NCBI GenBank assembly: GCA_023053575.1
Contig: JAKZAP010000020.1
Location: 19,959,998-20,023,997, forward strand
DNA length: 64,000 nucleotides
Source: Branchinecta lynchi
Taxonomy: Eukaryota; Arthropoda; Branchiopoda; Anostraca; Branchinectidae
Direction: 5' to 3'
The notes beneath the pieces were generated by a model. The model searched no databases. It was given only the letters and a program-made list of their open reading frames with translations, and was not told the DNA's origin. A program made the position numbers and the translations under genes. Each line of letters starts with the position of its first letter. Within the stretch, counting starts at the first letter, position 1. Of the stretch, positions 16,450-56,300 are shown piece by piece.

Positions 16450-18084
16450 TCAAATCAAGCTTCCAAATTCGTCTTTTACAATGCCCGAGGGAGCTTGAGC
16501 CTCGCAAGAAATAACGGGAATCATTTTCCCACCGACAAAAAATGCCTCGTCGAACTCGCTCAGGACTGAGGGTTGTGGTCCCACAAGCGTTGGGATCAAA
16601 GGTGGGGGGAGATTCTCGAACGACGGCGAGTCATCCACGGAATCTTCCGGCTTTGAAGCGCGAAGATTGAGAGGATATTCCCGCAGAACTTTCTCAACCT
16701 GCCCGGTTATATCAGCCTGAAAGTCTATCAACTCCTTTTCGATTTCGTCTGCCTTCGCTGCCACCTCCAAGTTCTTTCTCTGCAACTCTTCCAGTGTTTT
16801 CAAATTAGTCGCCATAACCTGCAGCCCTTCTGGTTCGTAGCGACCGTTTTGCAAAGCGCTCAGCGGAAATAGTTCACCAGACATGTACGACTTGAATTGG
16901 TCCTCGCTAAGGTCTAGGTCTTTTCCGCACATTTTCTCAATAAACTCAATCGTGATTCTTAGGTTTGTGAAGTAGTACCCACTCTCCCCGGACTCAGAGC
17001 GGGATGGATTGGCAAAGTGGGTGATATAGGTCACGTTCGACCAGAGACGTGGTGGATTGGCGCGCAGGACTACGTAGATTAACGTTGGGAGGAAATCATC
17101 CGCGGCAACGGCGGAATCGTTTTGATTTTCGGAAGACTCTTTCAACATCTTGAAAACAAGTTGGCTGGTGCGCACTATAAGTTGAAGTTTGTCCTGTGGT
17201 ACCCGCTTAGCATCGATTTCGATCAAGTTCGAAATCGCCATTTCAAGCAATTTCTTCACTTCTTCAGACTTCTCATTAATACTACAATCAAGCATATCCG
17301 GTGTAATCCAGTTCATCTGCCGTATTCGGTGCTGAAGCAGCAAATCCTTATCTTCTTCCAGTGAAAATCCGTTGTAGGTCAGTTTCCGGTAAAGACGGGT
17401 GCAGAGGTATCTCTCTATATAATCCAGCAGTACCTCTATGTCATCCGGACCGACACTTTGAAAAGCCTGATGTTTCTCAGCTTTCTCTTTGAAACTCTGA
17501 TAGATTTCTTTGAACAAATTCGATAGCTCTTCACCATCCAAGTGCTCGTCTACCAGAGTGTGCTCGATTCTGTCAAAAGCCTTCCGCGCGAACGCCGCTG
17601 TTTCAATATCAACTTGGGAGTTCTGCCGTTTCAGAAAGCGACTGAAATCTTGCATCATTCTATGAGTTTCCGGGCTGAGAGATCGATGTCCGTCCTTCGA
17701 CGGACTTTTCCGGAAGAGCTTCGATGCGCCGGATTTGCTCGACATGGAAGCGCTCGACAATTTTCGACGCTCGTCGATCCGCGGTAGAGTCTGAAGGTTA
17801 GACTTAGCCGTTTGGAGTGTAGTCTTTACACTCTCCCCAACGTCGGTAACTGATCGGGACACTTTGCTTTTTGTTTTTTCAAGGAAATCGAGAGGCCGAG
17901 CCCGCGATTTCGTTGCCACGCCAGTATCCCGGAAGCACTTGGAGCAGTATCCGTCCCAGAGTACGTTTCCGTAGAAACCACACGCGTTTTTGCACAGAAG
18001 GTCTGTTTCACTAACATGAAAACGCGCCGGCGCTTCTGAACGGCGGGAATGACTGCTCTTCGGTCGAACTTTGACGAATGACAT
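16450..18084 (-). CDS. RABGEF1: Rabex-5/RABGEF1-like Rab5 guanine nucleotide exchange factor, 544 aa
   Basis: Established family role: Rabex-5 catalyses GDP/GTP exchange on Rab5 at early endosomes, in complex with rabaptin-5, and binds ubiquitin. Seen here: an A20-type zinc finger with Cys 31, 35, 47 and 50; a helical-bundle region at about 155-235; a VPS9 domain at about 240-390 with the family motifs DDFLPTLIYV (329-338, catalytic Asp 330) and GYYFTNL (369-375); and a C-terminal helical/coiled region at about 425-470, where the family binds rabaptin, followed by a proline-rich PPPLIPTL. The ubiquitin-binding MIU helix that follows the zinc finger in vertebrate Rabex-5 is not recognisable. 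The start is supported by an in-frame TAG six bases upstream. The whole coding region lies in one exon, with an acceptor (TTTCTTTCAG ending at 18220) placing an intron in the 5' UTR. Length is close to the usual 490-540 aa. Confidence 0.9.
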   Translation of the reverse strand: MSFVKVRPKSSHSRRSEAPARFHVSETDLLCKNACGFYGNVLWDGYCSKCFRDTGVATKSRARPLDFLEKTKSKVSRSVTDVGESVKTTLQTAKSNLQTLPRIDERRKLSSASMSSKSGASKLFRKSPSKDGHRSLSPETHRMMQDFSRFLKRQNSQVDIETAAFARKAFDRIEHTLVDEHLDGEELSNLFKEIYQSFKEKAEKHQAFQSVGPDDIEVLLDYIERYLCTRLYRKLTYNGFSLEEDKDLLLQHRIRQMNWITPDMLDCSINEKSEEVKKLLEMAISNLIEIDAKRVPQDKLQLIVRTSQLVFKMLKESSENQNDSAVAADDFLPTLIYVVLRANPPRLWSNVTYITHFANPSRSESGESGYYFTNLRITIEFIEKMCGKDLDLSEDQFKSYMSGELFPLSALQNGRYEPEGLQVMATNLKTLEELQRKNLEVAAKADEIEKELIDFQADITGQVEKVLREYPLNLRASKPEDSVDDSPSFENLPPPLIPTLVGPQPSVLSEFDEAFFVGGKMIPVISCEAQAPSGIVKDEFGSLI

Positions 18085-18219
18085 TCTCTAGAAGTCTTCT
18101 TCTTCTTCCAGTAGCGCTTCTTGAAAGGTGGAAGAAACAAACAAAGGCGTGTGATTCCGTCGTATCTCAAGTGCCTTCAGATATTCTGGAACGTTGACGA
18201 ATGCTGCCGAGCGATGAAA
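18085..18219 (-). other. RABGEF1: 5' UTR exon portion of the Rabex-5-like gene
   Basis: On the minus strand a strong acceptor (TATTTTTCTTTCAG) ends at 18220, and 135 nt of leader lead to the ATG at 18084. An upstream non-coding exon is therefore expected, but I could not place it. Confidence 0.55.
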
Positions 18220-33204: not shown

Positions 33205-34130
33205 GTAACAAGACCAAAGGTGACGATGGGATCCCAAAAATGTAATATATAATCTAGACAGATAAATATTTTTACTTGTAATATTTAGAAAGAGATCAAA
33301 TTTGATAGTTGGGGATGAAACAGGATGGATACTTCAAAACTAGTTGTATTTTACAGATTGCTGCGCTTATCAGATGAGAAGTTTGACATACTGGTAAATT
33401 AGGGCTTCACTGGATAAGTTGTTGAATGTCTGGTGTGATTTGTCTGTGGTTCTTATACAGTTTTTGTTTATTCGTTGATCGACTACCATCGTCACTTCCA
33501 TGTGGAAGGGCTGAGATGTTTCAAGTAATGAAAGTGCACGTGATTTTGATAGTCTGAACACATACGACCGAGAGCAACGGGACTGAAATTCTTGTCTGGA
33601 TTTTTCTCACCATCATCACTTCCGTAAGGAAAAGTTGAAATTTTGTCAGCTTTTCCAATATGGAAATGGTGGTGGGGAAAATCTCGGCGGCAATATGCCG
33701 TCTGCAGATAGGTAGTTCGCACCAGAGCAAAATAACACAAGGGAGTATCGCCAACACTTGAAAATAGTGATACGCAATTGAACAGATTTTTGCTACTATC
33801 GTCACTCCTAAACGGAAAAGCTGGGATTTTTTCAATTTATGATGAAAGTTCTGAAGATCAGGCCTTTCTGGAGAGGAGACTACCCAATGCGAACAGTCTG
33901 TCAAGGGTCCGACGTACCCGGTTTCGAATTCCTGTTCGGATTTTCGCTTCATTGTCCCTTGCATACGAAAAAGATCTAAAGTTTCATTAAGATCCGATCA
34001 CCCTTCCAAAATTTGGATATTCCCCAAGATTCCGGATTCCCCTCGCTCCACTCCCACCATGATGGTCAAATCGGAGAAAAGACTGTTCTTAAGTTAAAAT
34101 TGTCGAGTCCCTGAGATGCCTGCCAAGTTC
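33205..34130. repeat. Family A end fragment and degraded relatives
   Basis: 33209-33255 is an isolated A terminus (AACAAGACCAAAGG...GGGATCCC). From 33480 to 33900 a motif like TCACTTCC(A/G)TA(T/A)GGAAAAG recurs about four times in both orientations. 33965-34130 matches the 415-bp tandem repeat of 22800-24190. I see no gene. Confidence 0.5.
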
Positions 34131-41300: not shown

Positions 41301-44300
41301 TCGTGATAACTACCGAATCCTGTCAATTATACCGAATCCCGATCATATACCGAATAAATTTGTACCAATAGCTTATTTTGGATTCTGTATAACTACCGAA
41401 TCCCGTAAATATACGAATAGTTCTCGTATCGAAAAAATACCGAAATATTTTAGTAAAATGTTTGGCCTTTGTACTGCAAGTCCGCCACCCTCCCCCCCCC
41501 CCTTGCGACGTGTTTCTTACTTTTGGACAAGTTGTTCGATTAGTTTTGTTATACAGAGTCGATGCAGGATGTACAGCCCCTGAGGCAGAAACAGTTTCGC
41601 CCCCCCCCCCCTCGAATTATCTTCGTAATAGGGCTTCAGTCTGATTAACCCAACACTTCCGTAAACACACTAAATTTAAAGTTGTAAATTTTTAATTACT
41701 ACACGAACAAACCAACAAAACTTAAATGTTTCGTCGTTTCGGGGCCCCTAAAAGATGAGGGTCTAACACGCAGGTATGTCAGTGCGCCTACAGCGAAACG
41801 TGCTTGCTCACAATCAAGGCCGTATCCAGGGGGGGGGGCTAGGGGGTTGACCCCCCCCCCCTCCGAAACATACAAAATAGTCATTTTTATAGGCTTTTCC
41901 CTCTGATCTGTGTGTCTTTTGTACTTTTTTGTCCGACCAGCAGGCAACCCCCCCCCCCCCCGAAAGGCACCACCCCCCCGAAATAAATTCCTGGATACGG
42001 GCCTGCTCACCATACTTTTCAAATCCTGTCAGGACAAGTGAAATTTACCTTTGTTCTGCCTCGCAGTAGTCAGGAGAGTCGCTGACATAGAGCAAGTCCT
42101 TTTTCGTTGGCTTCCTGACTCCCTCCCCCACCGGTTTCCACTTCTTTCTTTTTGAAAGTTTAACTTTCGTAGCTCCTTCGTAGCGCTCCATCAGCGCCTT
42201 GGCTACGTTATGGAGCGCTTGGAGCTTTCGCCAGCAGACTCGGACAGTACATGAGCCAGAAACGCCGTGGCATTTGCAGACTAGACGGACCTGCTTCTGC
42301 AGTGCCTAGAAAACGAAGAAACCAATCTTTAGGTGCGTTTTTGCAGATACCATGGTATCTGTTACCACGGTAACTGAATCTGCAATTATTCGTTTTTGCA
42401 GTTACTATGGTATCAATCAATCAATCAAGTTTAATCCCAATAGCTAAAAGCTAGAAAAGGAATACAAATTTGCTAAATACACAGACACACAAGAAACAAA
42501 TTAACTAATACACTTACAAGAAATTACCAGAAAGAAACGATGGAATGAAACTACTTAAAAATTGGGTAGAAGAATTAGCGGAATATGGGGAAAACTTATT
42601 GCCAGTATTCCTCTCGGACCGACGCACGGAAGACGGGAGGGGAGGGGGGAATAGATGGGTCATCTGGGTCCGTGTATCTGACACACGGTTGCTCTGCAAA
42701 AACGACTATTGCCAAAATTGCACTTTTCAAAGTCATCCCAAAAGAAAAACTGATATCCAATGACATCACTAAGTGCGAAACTTCTTTCTCACCAATTTGA
42801 CAAAATTTGACGAAATTGAGATGACTTTTCAGATACCACGACCAATTACCACGGCCGGACCGTAGTATAAAAATATCAGATACCACGATAACTGCAAAAA
42901 CACCTTTTGACCGTGGTATCGGATACCATCTATAACTGCAAAAACGACTTTAGATCGTGGTATCAGATACCATAGTATCTGCGAAAACGCAACTTTTGAT
43001 TTCCTTCCTTCCATGTCTTTAATTTGCCTCTGTTTAGTAGTTACAACTTTCCACTGAATAGATTCAGCATTCAGTTGAGTTTATTATACCATGGGAAACC
43101 ACATAGTCCCCCGGTAGTAAGTACTTCGGAATAGTATACAAATCAAATATTCGGTCTATGAGGACAACGTTAGTTGAAAATGTATGTAAAGCGATGCGAC
43201 GCGGTTACGGCCGCTCGGTAAAATATAAGCACAGTGTCAACCGGTTTGTTCTAGCCCGTCTGTTTAATGCAGTAATTACACCTTACGTACTTTATGTTCC
43301 GCCACTTTGGGAATTTAAAAAAATAACAGACCAAAGAAAAATATGCACCGCGTACTACAAGTACGTAAATTTTTGCTTGGCGTCCCTCTCCGAAGTCCAA
43401 AGACGGAGTTATCAGCCAAATACAGAATAGTAAACCCCAGCGAAAGAATACATACAACTGAAACAAGGCTCGAGCAAGAACTTTAAATGCTTATTTATTT
43501 ATTTATTTGAATCTAATGCCGTCCAACTAGGGACAGTATACTAAACAAAACAACACTTAACAAACTTACACTTTACACACTAAGTTGGGTCAAACCCACA
43601 ATATACCAACTAATATTTCGGCCCTTCTTGGCAAGGGTCCTCTTCTGGCTCAAAACCGCTCAAGTTGTTTCCCACAGGTTCATTTTTCCAACTTGAGCGG
43701 TTTTGAGCCTGAAGAGGACCCTTGCCAAGAAGGGCCGAAATATAGCTCCAATAAAATTCAGCTGACGTATCCGTTTTGCACCATCAAATAGCAACTCCCC
43801 CCATTTCAGCCAAATGGGAAGAGATAGCCGCATGTGCAGCGCAGAGAGAACAGCCAAGAGAGGGTTCTGGGACTCGAAAGTTCTATTCTGGAGCGAAAAA
43901 CAAGCTGATCTACGGATTTCACAGAAAGATGGGAGACCTTCACCAACAAACATTGCCGAGGCACTACAATCCCAGGGAAAACCATGCAAACACCGGAGGG
44001 AGCTATCGTACAGAACACGAAAAGAACTACCGTGCCGTGAACTACTAGTGCGTGTATTCATTTTCTATAGTTTCTTTTCTTTTCTTTTTCTTTATGTAGG
44101 CTACTCCGCTTTTTCCCTTTTGTAAGCGGGCAAACCAAATATATATATATATATAACATAGTAGTCCGCAAAGAGTGAAGTTCGGCCGCACTCGTCACGT
44201 GGAGTCTGCGCAGTGAAAAAGGCGAATTTTTTGAAATTCCTCTTTTGTTTTGTTTTTGACTGGGGGATTTCATGTTTCTAGTCAGTACATATCGATCGAT

Positions 44301-47300
44301 CAATTAAATTTAATTCCAAATAGCTTAAAGCTAGAAGAGGTGAATAAAATATTTACGAATACACAAAATCGACAACAAATTAAGGTCCCCTTGAAAACGA
44401 AAACGGGACCCACCTGGCTACACAAAATCGACAACAAATTAAGGACCCCTTGAAAACGAAAACGGGACCCACCTGGCTAACGGAAAACAGGACCCTTTGC
44501 AAACGAAAACGGTACCTACCTTCTTAATGCGGACAATGGACAGAATTTTTGAAAGATGGACCCGTAAATTCATAAAGTTCAAGGAAATACAACGGTGGTA
44601 CCGGATCCGCTATACAGCGGTTGGGTTCAAAAGGCATGTCTTGGCCTCTAGCTTTCGACAAAGTTAGTTGAGAAGCGGGAATTCCTTCTGGTAGATTTGG
44701 TGTCGACAAATATGTAGGGACTCGCCGCACAGAGAAGGTAGGGTTGGGGGCAAGGCCGTATCCAGGGGGGGGGGGGGGGGGTTAGGGGGTTGAACCCCTC
44801 CCCCCAAACATACAGAAATAACGATTTGTATAGGCTTTTCCCTCTAATCTATGTGTTTTTTGTACTTTTTTGTCCGACCAGCAGGCAACCCCTCCCCCCC
44901 CCCCCGAAACGCAAACCCCCCCCCCCCCCCCCCGAAACGCACCCCCCCCCCCCGAAATAAATTCCTGGATACGGGCCTGGATGGGGGTTAAACTTCAAAC
45001 GACAAGTGCTGGACGCTAGCTCTAACTTCCGACAAAGTTCAGTGAGGTCCAGCAACTCAAAAGGAGATATTAGGAGATTTTCTATAAAATTACGGGTCCA
45101 TCTTTCAAAAATTCTGTCCATTGTCCGTATTAAGAAGGTAGGTCCCATTTTCGTTTGCAGGGGTCCTGTTTTCGGTTAGCCAGATGGGCCTCGTTTTCGT
45201 TTTCAAGGGGTCCTGTTTTCGTTCGCCTTAGAAATTAGTAAGGGTCTATCTAACCTGTGCGGTTTTTACGGAAAATGTGGACCTTATGCCGGATTGATGA
45301 ATATGACATTACATTTTGGAAAGCTCCGTAGAACTCTTGCCTGGGGCCAAAAAGGATGTTTTTTGCTTGTAAAATGAACCAGATAGCCTACAGTGTGTGA
45401 AGTAAATTGGAGTTGTATAGCCTATGTCAGAGAGAACTATCCGAAGTATGCAGCCAAGCTTTCGTTTCATCAAACCATGTTTCTGCTTTCGAGTGCAAAG
45501 CTCCGTTCTAGCAGGCAAGCAGATAGGCCCCTACTATATAGCAGGCAAGCAGACGTCCCTACTGAAAGTCAGTTCGTCGTTCACTTGCATAAAACTTCGT
45601 ATACTAAACACAGCAAAAAAAAAGATATTGTTTTCTCGATGTATGCAGACCGCATCTTAGCTATACTAGAAACTTTCTAACCCGTAAGTTTGTCTCACTT
45701 TGAATGTCCCGAGCATAGTGGGCGGCGCTACGACTAATGCCCGTACATGGAAAGCATATGTGTTAGCGCTACTCCCTTCACTGTCAGAAGTTTCATAACA
45801 GATAGCGTATAAACCTTCAAGAATAACACCTTTTCACATAGAAATAAAGTGTTATGACCGGTTAAGTTTACACTATTTCGTACCTAGATCTCTAACTCTT
45901 TCAGTTGCTATCCGGCGCTTGTCGCGAGAAGATGTATTTGCATTTCATTCCATTGTGCCGTGACGTAATAAGCAGAGTCTAAACCTGCGGTGTGCACGCA
46001 GTGCTAATCTGAATATTGTATTTGCAATATTTTGCTTGGATAAATCACTAGGCCCTGTGCGTTAACGTGCACTGTTCAGTGCCGCGCAGGAAAGGCAGGT
46101 GGGCTGACCTCGCACAGGTTGGATTGGAATCCACTCGGATGCTCTCGTGAGGCTCAGCCCTCACGTAAAGATAAGTTTTTTGCTGTTTATCTTTTCTGGT
46201 AATCATGTCTTTCAACCAGTTTGATCTCGCTCTTGCAAAGTTCAAGGACTATCCGCTCTGGCCAGTAAGAATCGTCAAACCTGGTAAAGATACACGTGGC
46301 AAGCCAGTCTATATGGTTTTCTGCTATGGATCACATGAGGAATTCCGCCTCGTTGAAGCAAATATCCAAGCCTACGATCCTACCGCGGATAATTCATCTG
46401 CTCCTGCTACAAAAAAAGCTTTTGAAGAGCTTGCTACTGCGCCTGATATTTACAAGAGACTGTCCAAAACATACCTTGCGCTCAAAGGCAATGATAAAGG
46501 CAAAGCTAAAGGCTCAACACCCATATCATCTAGCAGCATTAGCCCGATTCATCAGCAACTTGTAGCAACTCAAGCGGAACTGGATAAAACCAAAAATGAT
46601 TTGATGGACAGTATAACTCAAAAAGTTACGGAAAAACTGGCTAGCTCAAACTCACTTAAGGAATCAACTGAGCTTATTGTGAGTCAAATTTATGACGCCG
46701 TTACGCTTGAATTTAATCCCAAGTTTCAACTAATCGAGAAATCGTTAAAGGGGCTGAGTAATGAATTTGAGCACTTGGAGGAAAAACTGAACAGGCTGGA
46801 AACTAAATTGGACGGTTATGAACAAGAGTCATTACTAGATAGTCTTGTGTTTCACGGTGTAAGGCAACAAACTGGAGTTGACACTCGTTCTGCTGTGTTG
46901 TCGATTGTAAATCAGAAGATGTCGTTGCCTGAAGTAAATACAACGGAGATCATGAATGTCTATAGACTCAGACTGAATAATGCTGCTACTGACTCAACTC
47001 AGTCTGCTCCAAGGGTCGCTCCAGTTATTGTGAAGTTTGCGAGCAAAGACATAGCTAAGAAAGTATTCAAGGCCAAAGCCAAACTGGCCTCTAGTGGAAT
47101 TTTCGTTGCGGAGTCTCTGACCAAGCAACGAAGAGACATCCTGAATGCGGCTAAGGACAAATTCGGTCAGAAGAATGCTTGGTCTGATCAAGGGCAAATC
47201 TTAGCAAAGCCTAGAGATGAGACTGTGATTAGAAAGATACGGTCGCTCGCGGACTGTATCTAGGTTGATTTTTTTTTTTTTTTTATGGTTAAGTTGTTCT

Positions 47301-50300
47301 TCTTTTCGGTTGTTTGTTTATCTTTTGTTCTCTTCTTTCTCTTTCATTTTCTTTTTTTCTCCGTGACCACGGGTCACCAATTCTTCCGTTATTTCTTCTT
47401 CTATTTTTTTCCTTTAGTATTATTTTCCTCCGAAATTTGTTTGATTCTTTTTCATTTCGAAAAAGAAACATTCCTTTTTTGTTGCTAAAGTTATGTTGTT
47501 TTTTTGATGGTTCTGGGTGAATTACGACGGTTTAGCCTTGAAAGTTATTTGTCGAGAGGAGTGGCCCGAGATGATGATTGCCCAGTAATAGATTTGAAGC
47601 CTATGAGAAATAGTACATTTATCCGATCGCCGCAAGATTTCCTGTCACCTCTGAGTGACCCGTGTCTTCGTCTTGCTTCATGGAATGTGCACATTACGTC
47701 GAGTTATCAGGATATTCTTCAGCTACTAGATGATTTTTCGTCGGAGTTTGATATAATTGGTATTTGCGAATCGTTCTTAAGCACAGACCATTCTCTTTCG
47801 CTTTATTCATTTCCAGGGTACAACGTCCATGTGAAGAACCGAGTTTCAATGAGCCGTGGTGGGATTGCATTGTTGGTTAAGGAGGGAATTGGGTATGGTG
47901 TACGGGATGATCTAAGTATTTGGAAAGAAGGTAAGGTAGAAATTTTTTCAATAGAGGTTGAGTTAAATGGTAAGAAAAATATAATTAGTATGGTGTATAA
48001 GCCGCCCAGTGCACACTTGGATGATTTTATTGAAGGGTTTAATGAGCTGCTTGCTAAAATACCACCTGAGTGTAGCCATAATGTGATGGGGGATTTCAAT
48101 TTTAATCTCCTTGATTTGTCTGGAACGAATGGTGATTTTTTGAATTTTAGGATTTCGAGTGATTTGTATCCCCTCGTGGGCGTACCAACGAGAATTACCT
48201 CACAAAGTGAAACATTGATAGACAATATCTTTGTTAAATCGAGTGATCTTCACAGGAGCTTTGCTGATGTGATAGTTTGCCCTGGATCTGACCATCTTCC
48301 ATTAATAGCTACAATTAATCACCCTGTGAAAAAACTGCGAAAGAAGAAGGTCGTTACTAGACTGATGAAAAAAGAAAATCTCCAAAAATTTGCCGAAGAG
48401 ATTAGTATTATTGATTGGAGCCCTGTTTTTGCAGAAAAAGAATGCCCTTCAAGGGCATTAGATAGCCTTATGTCAGCCATATTGCCTATTTATGAAAAAG
48501 CATGCCCTCTAAAGGCTGTAAAATCCAAAAAACTTATTCCACGAAAGCCATGGATGTCGATGGAAATAATTGATGAAATAGAACTGAGAAACAGGCTATA
48601 TGAGAGATATTTAGATAATCGGAGTGATGAATCATTTGACCTATTTAAAACACAGAGGAATTTAGTAAACAAACTTCGAAGAAATGCAATTTCTGATTTT
48701 TATAATCGTAAATTTGAGGATAACAAAGGGGATATGAAAGAAACGTGGAGGACAATAAATGACCTTGTTAGTGACAAAGGAGACAAGAGGAATGAAGAAG
48801 TGTGTTTAAGCGGTTGTGATCGTAATGATAAAAGTGCAATTGTAAATAAATTTGGTCAGTTTTTCTCGAATATTGGTCCTGAAGTGCAAGATAGTGTGTA
48901 TGACAAGTATCAAGAAATGCAGAGTAGCAATATTCCTGATGAAAGAGGTGAATCTCTAGAAATGAATTTTAATTTGTGTACCAGTGATGAAGTTTGTAAA
49001 ATTGTGAAGTCGCTAAAGTCTAATTCAGCTGGAGTGGATGGCTTATCTCTTCGAGGGCTTAAAGCGATTTTCGGTTACATACTACCCTGTCTGTTTTTTA
49101 TTATTAATCTTTCTCTAGAAAAGGGTAAGTTCCCTGAACAGCTTAAAGTCGCGAAGGTCATACCCCTCCACAAGGGTGGCTGCAAAAGAGACATTGAAAA
49201 CTGGCGACCGATATCGATATTACCTCTTTTTTCAAAGATATTAGAAAAAGTCGTCCATAAACGCCTATATGACTTTCTCCAGGTGAATGAGTTATTAAGT
49301 GAAACACAATTTGGTTTCCGAAAGGGACACTCTACAACTCATGCCTTGCAGCATCTGGTGGAATGCGTTAGTGGTGCGTTGGATAAAGGGTACTTACCGA
49401 TGTCAATTTTCATTGATATAAGGAAGGCATTCGATACTGTAGATTTCAAGATTTTGCTCAACCGACTCAAGTGTCTGGGAATTCGTGGCACTTCTTTACA
49501 GTGGTTTGAAAGTTATCTGCTTGGAAGATCCCTGCGTGTAGTACTCAATGATGTGACTTCATCTTCTTATCAACTCAAATGTGGAGTACCGCAAGGTTCA
49601 GTCTTAGGTCCCTTGCTTTATCTTGTGTATGTAGATGGAGTGCGCTTTCATCTTCAAGACGTCTGTGTTACAACCTTTGCTGATGACACAGCTTTGACAG
49701 TGTGTGCTAAATCGATCGAAGAGCTTGTGTTGAAAGCAAATGATGCGTTAAGAAGGCTGGAGGTTTTTATGAACCTTAGCTTGCTGTGTGTCAACGTTAA
49801 AAAGACTTTTCTAATGACTTTCTGCAGAGTAGGCATGCCAGTTGATGCAAGTGGTCTAGTTACGTTATCCAGGAAGCCTGTCCAACAAGTTCATATAGTG
49901 CGGTACTTAGGATTTTTCATAGATTCAAACCTTTCATGGAAGCATCACAGTGATATTATTTCTGCAAAAATTGCCCGAGGAGTTGGAATGCTGCGTAGAC
50001 TGAAGCATTATTTACCAAAGCGGATTCTCCTAATGATTTATCACTCAATTGTTTACCCATATATTTCATATGGCTGTCTGATCTGGAGCAGCAATTTTTA
50101 CAGTAATTTCAAAAGAGTCCAGATTCTTCAGAACAAGGCCGTGAGGATCATAGGCAAGTATGTCAAGGATTTGAATGATACAAGTGCTTGTTTTAAGTCT
50201 TTAAATTTGCTCAACGTGGGTCAACTACGGGATTATCAAGCGGCAGTTTTCGTTTTCCAGTGCGTGCATAATCTAGTCCCAAGTGTTTTCCGTGGTACTT

Positions 50301-53300
50301 ACCGTGCAAACAGTGAGATTCATGAATATGATACAAGAAATAGTGAAGATTTGGTGATTGAGCTTAAGAGTAGCACAAGATCAGGATTTCAGCAGTTTCT
50401 TGGAACTGCAGTCTGGAATTCTTTACCAGTGAGCATCAGGGCGGCTGAGCATCTTTTAGAGTTTAAGAGAAAATTAAAAGAATATTTAATAAAAGATGGT
50501 TGAGAAATGTATTTATTTGTTAGGGGTAGGGGGTGGAAGGTAGGTAGGGTGGTCTGGCTGGTTGGGAGGAACGGTTGGTTGGGGGTGGTAGGGAGGAATT
50601 GGTGGATGGGTGGTAGGAAGGGAGTAGGGTTGTTGGGAGGTATATGTTTATTTTGGAGGTGATAATGTGAAGGAGTTTGGTCTTTTTTCTTTTTTTTTGG
50701 GGGGGGGTCTGTTCTTTTCTTCTTTTTTTTCTTTTTTTTATTAGTTATTTATTATGTTGTTGTTGGTGTTTTTAGGAAATGGTTAACCTTTACTACTGCA
50801 CGCCAGCAAAAACGTAGGTTTTTCCATTAGTGCAGTAGATGTAAATATAGAAGAGTTAAACTGTGTTTATTAATAAAATAAGTATCCTATCCTATCCTAA
50901 CAACACCTTCAATTGGTAAAAATACTAACGGGAACGAAAGAAACATAACAGATAACATCCCAAAGTGTTATCTGTTGAAACCGCGCATCCTTCTGTTGTC
51001 ATTATGTAACTTCTGACAGTGTAGTATTTTTACCTATTGAAGGTGTTGTTGGAGATCTAGGCACGAAATAGTATAAACTTAATTGGTCATAACACTTTAT
51101 TCCTAAGAGAAAAGGTGTTATTCTTGAAAGTGTTATGCGCAATCTGTTATAAAACTTCTGACAGTGTAGTGTTATTTTGCTCTGGTACATAGACCCACAA
51201 TCGAATAGCAGCGACACTAGCACCACTAGCGAGAGAGAACGTCCCTACTGAAACTCAGTTAGTCGTTCACCAGCGCTGGCTCATAAAACTTCATATCCTA
51301 AACACAGCAAATTTTCTAACCCGTAAGTTTGTCTCATTTTGAATGTCCCGAGCGTAGTGGGCGGCGCTACGACTAATGCCCGTTTCTGATACATGGAAAG
51401 CATAGGTCTTAGCGCTACTACCTGCTGTTATTTTGCTCTGGTGCAAACCTGGTCCACCTGGTCCACCACATGAACTTTCAGCACATAATTTTGGGACAGA
51501 CGAGTTATATTCCAGAAGTTTGAAGAGAGAAGCTGATTACTGATTGGTCCTTACCTTTCTCCCAGCTTCATTGTTGTGGAGGTCTACAGTGACGTCATAA
51601 TCGCGTTTATCATCCGCTTTGTGGTCAATCGCTAATTTGCTGAGTTTCTGTCCTGCAGCGAGATCCTGGAACAAAAAGACAATGAACCTCGTTAGCTTCT
51701 TGACGACAGAAAATCGCAAGCTTCTTGTCTTGACGACGAATATACTAAGTGGGCCTGAATTTGCTGTAAGCATTTACAGGACCCGTCCTTGTTCGTTCCA
51801 TCGCCACTTTCATTTCCGAGAAAAGAAGAAAATGCACAACGAAAAACGCTTTTTTCAAAAAAAAAAAAATGATATTTCAATCATGTTTTCTTTTCTTTCG
51901 ACGAAACAGACTCAATCACCTGTCTGACCGAAGGAGACACCACAAACCATCAAATATCATTTTCTTTCCAGGTGCCAGGAGTTTTCGCACTTGAGGGGTT
52001 CCTTATTTTCTGGGAATGGTGGGCAACTTCTTGGTATCTTACGCTCTACTTCACCAAGAGTGATTGTTTCTTTTGGTAATTTATGATATCGCAAAATGTC
52101 CGTCTGTCTGTGAGCACGATAACTCTCGAAGGGAATGACATATTTTGATGAAACTTGGTGCGAGGATCCATTCGATCAAGGGAAAGGTCAAGTTCATGGA
52201 TGGGCTCTGTAGCCCTACATTTAGGGGTGGGGGAAGGGGTTCAAATTAAGGGACAAACAAAATATTTTTTAAACAGCTCTGATAGTCGATTATGGGGTAA
52301 AAAGGCATGCTGAGCACGACAGTGAAAACCATTTTCTCGCCAGACAAGTAGTTAATCCGGAATCCGGCAAAAAAAGGAAAGTTGGTTAAAAGTAAAAGTT
52401 TTATTTGAAGTTGATTAAATGTTCGGTTTAGGGGTAAGAAGACATACGATGGTGAAAACCACTTTCTCGCTGGACAACTATTTCGCCCGGAATCCGACCA
52501 AAACTGGAAAATTTGTTATAAGCAAAAGTTTCATTAGAAGACATAAATAGGAGTAAGAAAAGAGGCTGAGTCTGTCTATGGCGATCATTTTTTACCCGGA
52601 CATATAGTTAGTCCGGAATCCGGTTGTAACCGGCATTTTTTTTTAAGTCAAAGTTTTTTTTGAAGTTGATTAGATGTTCTTTATAGGGATAAGGAGATAC
52701 GCCTGATTCGTTTCTGAATTTTCTGTTTTTGCTGGACTTGCAGTTCGCTCGGAATTCGGGCGAAAGCGGAAACTAGGCAGAAGTAAAGCAGAAAGTCTCG
52801 GTCAGTATCGTCAAAATAGATATGGCTTATAGAGGTATATCTGAACTTGGTTTTCTCTGATGATGAGCCTGGCGAAGACTGGATCTTGCGAAGACTGGAT
52901 CTGGCGAAGATAAGGCCCATTTGTCTCAATCAAATATTAGATTTTTGGGATCCCATCGACATCTTTGGTCTTGTTTAATTTGTTCTTTTGTTTGGTTTCC
53001 TATGAGTTGTTTATTTATCCTGTATATGGCCTTTAGGTTTTTCAATACAGATATATATATATATACTTACACAAGGCCGTATCCAGGGAGGGGGGGGGGT
53101 TAGGGTGTTGACCCCCCCCCCCCGAAACACACAAAAATAGTCATTTTTACAGGCTTTTCCCTCTAATATATTTCTTTTTTTGTACTTTTTTGTCCGACCC
53201 GAAGGCACCCCCCCCCCCGAACAAAATTCCTGGATACGGGCATGTACTTACATCAGAACATCCTCCCCACTCCCAGCCTTTTGTGGGTAAAAGTCGTGCA

Positions 53301-56300
53301 CGGGGGTCACACCCGCAGTCGTTCACTTCTCCGCGCGCGCAAGCACGCGTCACGGCGCTCGCTAGTCCGGCAGACGTCACAGATTGCACGTATGCTCGTT
53401 CTCGACTTTCTGCAAAATAAACGGTGTCAAGATACGAACCTATTCATTTCTGAATATATCTGTTCCATGAAGAACAAATAATCCAATAGACCCTCCGTCT
53501 TTGGTCCCATGAAGCGACTATAAGAGTATTCTCGCCGTTCCCCGAGGACTCCTTTTGAGGAATCCCTGCATTTTTGTTTGTCCCAGGGACTCATTCCCCG
53601 TATTCTCGCGAGTCGAACGGGAATGCTTCGATTATGATTACCATCATCAAAAAGGACTCCCTTTCAGATTCTGAGGGGAATTAGATTTTGCTGGTGTTGT
53701 GCAGTGTAAAATTAATTAAAAACAATCAGAACAAAGAAAACCAAAAATAAAGCGGATACACACTAATTTCATCAACTGCATATCTTTTGTTGGAACAAAA
53801 TCCATTTTGTAAGCATTCCCCGTGTTCTCACTGTTTTCCATTCGTTGAGTCCGCGTGGAGTGACTCCATCTATTCTCGCCGTTTCCCCTGATTCCCCGAG
53901 GAGTCCTCGGGAAACGGCGAAAAAATACGCCTTAAGCCACGTTTACACGGAGGGTATTTACCCGTACTCCGCGGGTATTTTTCTCCGCAACAGCAAGAAA
54001 TTCCCGGGTATTCTCGACTTCAATTTCGCGAACTTTTTACACGGGTATTTGTTTGTCGAACGGTATTCTTTGACGTCAGCAACAACAAAATTGGAATTTC
54101 GAGCAATAATTTTGACGATGTCAGCAGTATAGAAAGGGGGTTCCCACCCCACCCAACCCCCCAATAAAATAAACCCCTAATTACATGAAATTTACCAATT
54201 TTAACATGTATTATATCAAATTAACTCCATATAAGAAGTGACCCAAATTGACACATGTTGGTAGAGAAATATCCGGGAGGCTAGTGGGAGGCTCACATTT
54301 GTTCCATTATTAAACAAGCCAGTGCGTCTCTGTCTCTCCTAAAACTGTTTTCCAAATTTTCGTGCCCTAAATCACATGTTCTCCGCCTTTACGTTACTTT
54401 CATTCGTCCGCTACTTGAGTATGCTTGTCCGGTTTGGCACTTTGGCCTGACAGTAGATCAGTCTGATAGGCTTGAAACTATTCAGAAGAGAGCTTTGAGA
54501 ATCATCTACCGCCAGGGCAAAGTGCCTTATATCCTCCTCCTCAAAGAATTCCGCCTCCCTACTTTAGCAGCCCGACGTCTTACTCTTTGTACTGGTTTCG
54601 GGAACAGTCTGCGTTCCCACTCATGTTTTGAGCACCTGTTTCCTACCCCATATTGCCCGCCAAAACCTCGACTACCTCGAGCTGTAGCACAAAAAGTTCC
54701 GGTTCTTAACCCTGTTTGTACAAGAACCGATCGCTACAGAAAGAGCTTTGTACCATCTTTTGTTGAAGTTTTGAACAATTGATTAACTATTTCCCTTTAA
54801 TGTTTTAATTGTCTAGGGTTTTATTCTGTTTGATCATTTTTTGACTATTGCTTTATTATGTACAACCGCCTTATTAAATGTTTTGTAATTATGATGTACC
54901 TGACGAAAACGACAAGTTCGGCAATCCAATGCTGTGAAAGTCTCGTTTTACAATAAAGTATCAGTATCAGTATCAGTATCCTGAGCTTTAAAACCTTGGA
55001 ATCTATTGGCTCGACTCTCCCTTGAAAAATACCTGGGTACCGCGTGAACGCTTTCCCCTCTCGTCTCCGTGGAAAAATACCCGCCGTGTAAATGATCCTT
55101 TATGGATACCCCTATATAACTGAGCGGAGCTAGAGGTACTTGCTGTGAGGTTTGAGTTGATACCCGTCTACTTAGATGTGACGTCACAATGGTAGACAAC
55201 CAATCGGCAGTAAAGGACGACTCAGACGGCGACCGTATTCTTCTGCCGGGTTCTACTGCGCTACAGCTGTTTGTAGAGGTAGAAAGGTAAAGGTAGCTCC
55301 TCGGCTCGTTTGCATCGGGTAGGGTATCAGAACATGGTCCTATTACAGAGATGGGGAGACGGAGGTTCTTTTCATTATTTGTTCCTGATGAGACCAATCT
55401 CCTTCAGTAATAAATGTGCTTCTGTAACGAACAGGTTGCAATTTATTTCGGGGGGGGGGGGTGTCTTTCGGGGGGGGGGTTGCCTGCTGGTCGGACAAGA
55501 AAAGTACACAAAACACATAAATCAGATGGAAAAGTTTGTAAAAATGATTATTTGTGTATGTTTGGGGGGGGGGGGTCAACCCCTTAGCCCCCCCCCCCGA
55601 TACGGCCTTGGACAGAGCCTATCAGAAGAGCTCTTCCCCACTTCTCTCCAGTGCGTTTTTTTTCAAGATCATTTAAATTTTTAATTGTCTCAAGCAGAGC
55701 ACGAAGAGCACAACCTATAGCGGGGTCTCTACTGGCAATCGTAAGCTGTCGGAAGACATCTTGTTAGTATTATAGGTACGACGGGTTCTTTAGGGAAGGA
55801 AGCGATTGCCGTAAACCATGCTAGTGTGATGGTTTTAATATTTCTTTTTGTTTGCATTCATGTTTGCATGATATTTATCATGTGTCAGCCTCACCTGAAC
55901 CAAGAATCAGCACCGGCACAATAGAAGTTATTGATAACTCGTGTTCAGTTGAGGCTATACAAACCATTTATTGGCAGAATAACAGCGGTGTTAGTTAGGG
56001 TTGCCACACTTGCCACATGTCGCGTGAATTGTCACGCTTCCTGTTTGGCACTCTTGTCTATAACATAAAGTTCACTCTATTTCAGAAAACGTCAAGATGT
56101 GTCATGTTTGCAGCAGGGATTCTGACAAGAAGTGACTATTTCACGTTTTTCGTAAACAAAAAATTAAGATGTGTCATTTTTTTAGCGGAATTCCGATCAA
56201 AAGTGACTATTTCACGTTTTTTATGAAATAAAATTTCACTAAAAATTCACTCTCTGTTTTGGCCAAACGTCACTCACCATATTCTTTTGATGTGGCAACC

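Follow-up and report, generated by a model that had tools for sequence, protein, structure and literature searches.

How LINEs without a sequence-specific endonuclease choose their chromatin is, to our knowledge, an open question. A LINE in the genome of the anostracan Branchinecta lynchi gives this question a concrete form, as its ORF1 was predicted to begin with a PWWP chromatin-reader domain of the HDGF/LEDGF type, through which the element might tether its RNP to transcribed chromatin. We analysed the LINE and its surroundings in a 64,000-nt stretch of contig JAKZAP010000020.1, referred to as the window herein, together with the relatives of its ORF1 protein.

The LINE occupies 45897..50896 on the + strand (~5,000 bp, with ends uncertain by at most 5 bp), and both of its ORFs are open. 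A 5' UTR of ~308 bp, from the left junction to the ORF1 ATG (45897..46204), precedes ORF1 (352 aa; 46205..47263, +), a T-rich inter-ORF spacer (243 bp, 58% T; 47264..47506), ORF2 (998 aa; 47507..50503, +), an AATAAA polyadenylation signal (50872..50877) and a short tandem (TATCC)n 3' tail without poly(A) (50883..50896). CTAAC is present at both ends (45892..45896 and 50897..50901) and represents at most a 5-bp target-site duplication, which may be a chance overlap with the 3' tail. ORF2 encodes an APE-type endonuclease (Pfam Exo_endo_phos, 35.1 bits) and a reverse transcriptase (RVT_1, 122.1 bits), contains the catalytic motifs GDFN, SDH and FADD, and matches L1 ORF2p at 1.3e-18; none of the three Pfam families listed for it is an RNase H. 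Blastn of the LINE against the 64,000-nt window revealed no terminal repeat within the element. With an APE endonuclease and a reverse transcriptase in ORF2 and no LTRs, the element is an APE-type non-LTR retrotransposon. The window holds a single copy by blastn, the only other match being a 51-bp stretch at 117–166 (84%), in the element's T-rich 3' region. The short-repeat tail and the C-terminus of ORF2 suggest that it may belong to the Jockey superfamily (L2/CR1 lineage). In two relatives of ORF1, P0025 and P0026, the translation continues beyond the end of ORF1 in an F-rich read-through, the last stretch of which is similar in both, and this suggests a T-rich inter-ORF spacer there, as in the window.

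We found that the ORF1 translation contains both predicted PWWP motifs at their predicted places, Y16-P17-L18-W19-P20 and Y41-G42-S43-H44-E45-x-F47. The Pfam PWWP model matched residues 7–69 at 27.6 bits (E = 4.3e-6; HMMER), exceeding the PF00855 gathering score of 25.6 bits; when relatives were scored singly, P0010 was above this cut-off (35.5) and P0016 and P0023 were just below it (25.2 and 25.1). A phmmer search of the PDB with ORF1 returned solely HDGF-related PWWPs and Drosophila LD23804p, which we take to be JASPer, with HDGFL2 as the top match (4.2e-6). Searching the PDB with the family profile returned HDGF (7.6e-13), LEDGF (2.5e-11), LD23804p (1.8e-8) and NSD3 (0.005). AlphaFold2, run on a 14-sequence alignment, modelled residues 1–90 with a pLDDT of 71–89 per ten-residue block as barrel strands plus C-terminal helices, the PWWP fold, and HDGF and HRP-2 PWWPs ranked top when the model was compared using Foldseek and VIA-align. 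The domain with its C-terminal helices covers residues 4–90 (46214..46474, +). A core-motif pattern occurred once in the six-frame window and in none of 30 mononucleotide shuffles, a weak control with a pattern written post hoc. We rejected a chance PWWP match, given the score above the Pfam cut-off, the profile matches in the PDB and the predicted fold.

The remainder of ORF1 also conformed to the original prediction. AlphaFold2 placed long helices at residues 114–146 and 152–209 (46544..46831, +), presumably a coiled coil, and residues 204–352 (46814..47260, +), an RRM and C-terminal domain (CTD), superpose on human L1 ORF1p. A presumed coiled coil followed by an RRM and a CTD identifies the protein as a Type II (L1-like) ORF1. 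Human LINE-1 ORF1p likewise has long helices, then an RRM and a CTD in the same order, but its N terminus is described as positively charged rather than as a folded reader (PMC5940361), and a targeting idea has been taken up for this charged N terminus as well (PMC5940361). Relaxase_C, DUF1664, Med4 and other Pfam families also matched the coiled-coil stretch, but below cut-off in the window's protein, and these matches were taken as coiled-coil noise. Baculo_FP_2nd matched four of 16 family members at E ≤ 1 (best 3.3e-5), and was set aside because it stayed under its cut-off of 24 in both proteins scored singly (P0016, 23.9; the window part, 13.4).

A single copy in the window is also what a chance host fusion, or a functionless passenger domain, would leave. 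Relatives of ORF1 were sought in 5.8 billion proteins using a search that finds only proteins sharing exact five-residue words, and 26 were found besides the window's own. The PWWP region was present, whole or in part, in 18 of these, and the eight without it could be counted in favour of such a fusion. However, seven of the eight are partial (118–274 aa; P0008, P0011, P0013, P0018, P0024, P0025 and P0026) and the other is a mixed gene model, while all relatives of at least 320 aa carry the PWWP (13/13). A PWWP-free sister ORF1 was also sought from P0010 residues 100–348, so that the search words were not drawn from the PWWP. The 12 proteins returned comprised seven full-length ORF1s, each with a PWWP, and five that were partial or mixed; they represented only the same family, fragments and a mixed Artemia gene model. 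The PWWP profile matched 16 of 16 members at E ≤ 1, these rows having been picked for holding the region, and nine of 14 at E ≤ 0.01, where three lacked the region and two more missed the threshold.

The only named host among the relatives is Artemia franciscana (P0019, P0020 and P0027). P0019 and P0020 are 33–35% identical to the window's ORF1 over the aligned part. P0019 carries the public name 'PC4 and SFRS1-interacting protein-like', so that an ORF1 belonging to this LINE family bears a LEDGF annotation. P0027 is a gene model that combines ORF1 pieces with a mitochondrial-carrier and a MYND domain, and is either a mis-annotation or an exonised LINE piece. Scans of viral contigs and genome contigs gave no confirmed relative, and phage records gave no match.

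To compare conservation along ORF1, we used 12 near-full-length members (66 pairs; 38–81% identical to the window's), leaving out seven truncated or decayed rows of the 19-row alignment (P0005, P0007, P0017 and P0019–P0022). Mean pairwise identity was highest in the barrel (residues 4–57; 53.5%), followed by the RRM/CTD (48.0%), the coiled coil (40.0%), the PWWP helices (38.6%) and the linker (18.3%), with 11 of 54 columns invariant in the barrel versus 17 of 148 in the RRM/CTD. Barrel and helices combined (residues 4–90) reached 47.6%, no higher than the RRM/CTD. Among the eight most divergent members, identity was 49.5% in the barrel, 47.9% in the RRM/CTD and 52.8% in the CTD part alone. The idea that no region of ORF1 is better conserved than the barrel was thereby weakened, as it leads among the 12 members but falls behind the CTD part among the eight. 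At the protein level, the conservation of the PWWP appears close to that of the RNA-binding half of ORF1, which would not be expected of a passenger domain.

Trees of residues 1–95 and of residues 113–352 mostly agree. Both group P0001 with P0002 and P0003 with P0004, then P0006, and both place P0009, P0010 and P0023 on one side, apart from P0012, P0014, P0015 and P0016. They conflict over P0014, whose partner is P0012 in the tree of the PWWP part (88/85) but P0015 in that of the rest (92/92); the placement of P0010 and P0016 differs as well. The PWWP thus appears to have been inherited together with ORF1 across divergences exceeding one change per site. The relatives with a PWWP, its conservation and the agreement of the trees led us to reject a one-copy host fusion, and a chance fusion or functionless passenger, already disfavoured, is highly improbable. 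Rather than being confined to one copy, the arrangement appears to define a LINE family whose ORF1 is of the PWWP type. Computation shows the PWWP and its fold, its inheritance along with the other parts of ORF1 and its conservation in the family. The core of the original prediction holds, in that an L1-type ORF1 is joined in one open frame to a PWWP of the HDGF/LEDGF type, and the fusion is stable in a LINE family by sequence, fold and relatives. Neither outcome named beforehand as refuting the prediction occurred: the domain was recovered by HMMER and in the AlphaFold2 model, and no relative of at least 320 aa lacks the segment.

Whether this PWWP could read a histone mark depends on its pocket. 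In LEDGF the pocket is formed by M15, Y18, W21 and F44, with H48 and E49 adjoining (PMC3663649), and in HDGF2 by Y18, W21 and F44 (PMC3119473). In the window's protein the first three LEDGF positions are F13, Y16 and W19 (46241..46261, +), and the Cys suspected at the third cage position, C40 (46322..46324, +), is real and aligns with LEDGF F44. Among rows with letters at each position, the M15 position is F in 17/18 and L in 1/18, the Y18 position is Y in 16/18 and F in 2/18, W21 (W19 here) and H48 (H44 here) are W and H, respectively, in 18/18, and the F44 position is C in 15/18, with W, Y and A once each. A complete LEDGF-type cage is therefore not present. Some human PWWPs, such as that of MBD5 and the N-terminal one of NSD1, also lack a full cage (PMC3119473), so C40 bears on reading and not on PWWP membership. 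In most members the number of pocket aromatics is kept and their arrangement altered; the pocket appears to be remodelled around F13, Y16 and W19, with Cys at the F44 position, and F13 may take the part of LEDGF F44. The domain resembles those of the HDGF-related proteins (HDGF, HDGFL2/HRP-2, HDGFL3, LEDGF/PSIP1 and LD23804p) in PWWP sequence, fold, C-terminal helices and the kept Y18, W21 and H48. It differs from them in the changes of M15 to Phe and F44 to Cys, and in that the remainder of the protein is a retrotransposon ORF1p. In Artemia, P0019 and P0020, both truncated models, have W or Y and not C at the F44 position; P0019 has an aromatic at both the M15 and F44 positions, and P0020 at the F44 position only.

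The LEDGF F44A mutant lost all nucleosome binding, for which its authors suspected misfolding (PMC3663649), leaving methyl reading by the window copy uncertain, and the conserved cage Cys is the main reason for caution about the targeting idea. In JASPer, the Y23A and W26A substitutions together abolish binding to H3K36me3 (PMC6877644), and by the Y-P-x-W spacing these residues would correspond to Y16 and W19. The PWWP could instead be mainly an extra nucleic-acid-binding or chaperone module of ORF1p that has lost histone-mark reading. The predominance of Cys at the F44 position, with Ala in one further row, would fit such a module, as would the HRP3 PWWP, a close fold match solved with TA-rich DNA (6iiq, 6iit), and the binding of JASPer to free DNA (PMC6877644). 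Yet Lys or Arg at the LEDGF DNA-contact positions (K12, 11/18; K14, 13/18; K70, 11/19; K71, 8/19) is less conserved than F13, Y16, W19 and H44, the reverse of what is expected of a pure DNA binder, although W19 may be kept for folding alone; we consider this explanation unlikely. The LEDGF PWWP has a very weak affinity for the methylated peptide by itself (17 mM) and relies on DNA contacts in addition (PMC3663649).

The original prediction had also noted that the location of the LINE in a Wnt intron would fit such tethering to transcribed chromatin. The location was borne out: Wnt exon open frames are found on the - strand at 53150–53443 (Pfam wnt, 55.8 bits), 51540–51773 (17.5 bits, below the 20.3 cut-off, continuing the profile between the other two) and 42048–42305 (95.4 bits), and the LINE occupies the intron between the exon frames at 51.5 kb and 42.3 kb. 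As the Wnt gene is on the - strand, the LINE is antisense to it. The insertion lies in a palindromic repeat, which it breaks at 45896/45897 and which the right flank resumes (45776–45896 versus 51169–51048, 88.5% inverted match). The arms of the foldback repeat extend over 45553–45896 and 51048–51423 (81–89% inverted match), and a further short piece matching the repeat is present at 33715–33757. We rejected this insertion as evidence of targeting, as it is one case, inside a palindromic repeat. Elsewhere in the window, a 545-aa open frame at 16453–18087 on the - strand contains an A20 zinc finger and a VPS9 domain, presumably resembling Rabex-5/RABGEF1.

We favour, with a probability of roughly 0.63, the reading that this is an intact-looking LINE whose ORF1p oligomers display PWWPs and hold the RNP on chromatin; both the oligomers and the tethering are what we infer from the domains. 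ORF1p would presumably oligomerise through its coiled coil, as is known for L1, and its RRM and CTD would coat the element RNA, as in L1 ORF1p. Each PWWP would combine weak nucleosomal-DNA contacts with a methyl-lysine-type pocket, and an oligomer displaying several of them could bind nucleosomes multivalently, with avidity adding to weak single contacts. The RNP would in this way be held on chromatin before ORF2p nicks the target. In the fly, the JASPer PWWP targets H3K36me3 at active genes (PMC6877644). We would put at somewhat less than even odds the more specific proposal that a LINE lineage captured an HDGF/LEDGF-type PWWP as a tether of its own, by which multivalent RNPs would reach the methylated nucleosomes of active genes, its cage having been retuned by an aromatic gained at M15, an aromatic lost at F44 and a conserved Cys, perhaps with preference for another mark. 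The PWWP of JASPer also recruits a host complex to active genes and to telomeric non-LTR elements, whose transcription is sustained by the JASPer partner JIL-1 (PMC6877644). The ORF1p PWWP could likewise serve host interaction rather than integration-site choice, for instance through nuclear retention, by shielding the element's chromatin against silencing or by competing with PWWP proteins of the host; nothing found here points to this directly, and it seems to us rather improbable. Tethering to chromatin is the reading that we retain, and the targeting idea, although putative, may be sound.

The closest known arrangement is that of the Type IIC ORF1s of L2 and CR1 LINEs, in which a PHD finger is joined to an L1-like Tnp22 part (Metcalfe and Casane 2014, PMC4120745); their authors suggested a general targeting role for the ORF1 PHD (PMC4120745). 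As here, the LINE is of the APE-RT kind with two ORFs, and its L1-like ORF1 goes together with a chromatin-reader-type domain, but the reader is a PHD finger and not a PWWP. PWWP is not named in the domain Table 1 of PMC4120745, which covers subgroups of 448 elements, and the word does not occur in its text. A literature search of open-licence PMC papers found no PWWP-ORF1 in the titles and abstract starts among the matches listed; deposited elements, such as those of Repbase, may yet include one with a PWWP that was never named. PMC3978060 was rejected as a prior case of a PWWP in a retroelement, as the gene in question belongs to the host and was hit by a DNA transposon. A search for Artemia and LINEs in open-licence PMC papers gave only one unrelated paper. 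What is known, then, is the combination of a reader with ORF1, in the form of the PHD finger, and what appears to be new is the PWWP as the reader.

Lentiviral integration assisted by LEDGF makes use of the PWWP of a host protein, and chromoviruses have a chromodomain on their integrase. In both, as proposed here, a mobile element is placed by a methyl-histone reader, whereas in this family the PWWP is encoded in the LINE's own RNA-packaging protein. The family would thus parallel LEDGF-guided retroviral integration in nature, with a single polypeptide containing both the tether and its cargo, and it indicates that the N terminus of ORF1 is able to acquire readers besides the PHD finger. Since the mechanism of PWWP domains is understood in host proteins, a PWWP in ORF1p makes the chromatin choice of a LINE directly testable.
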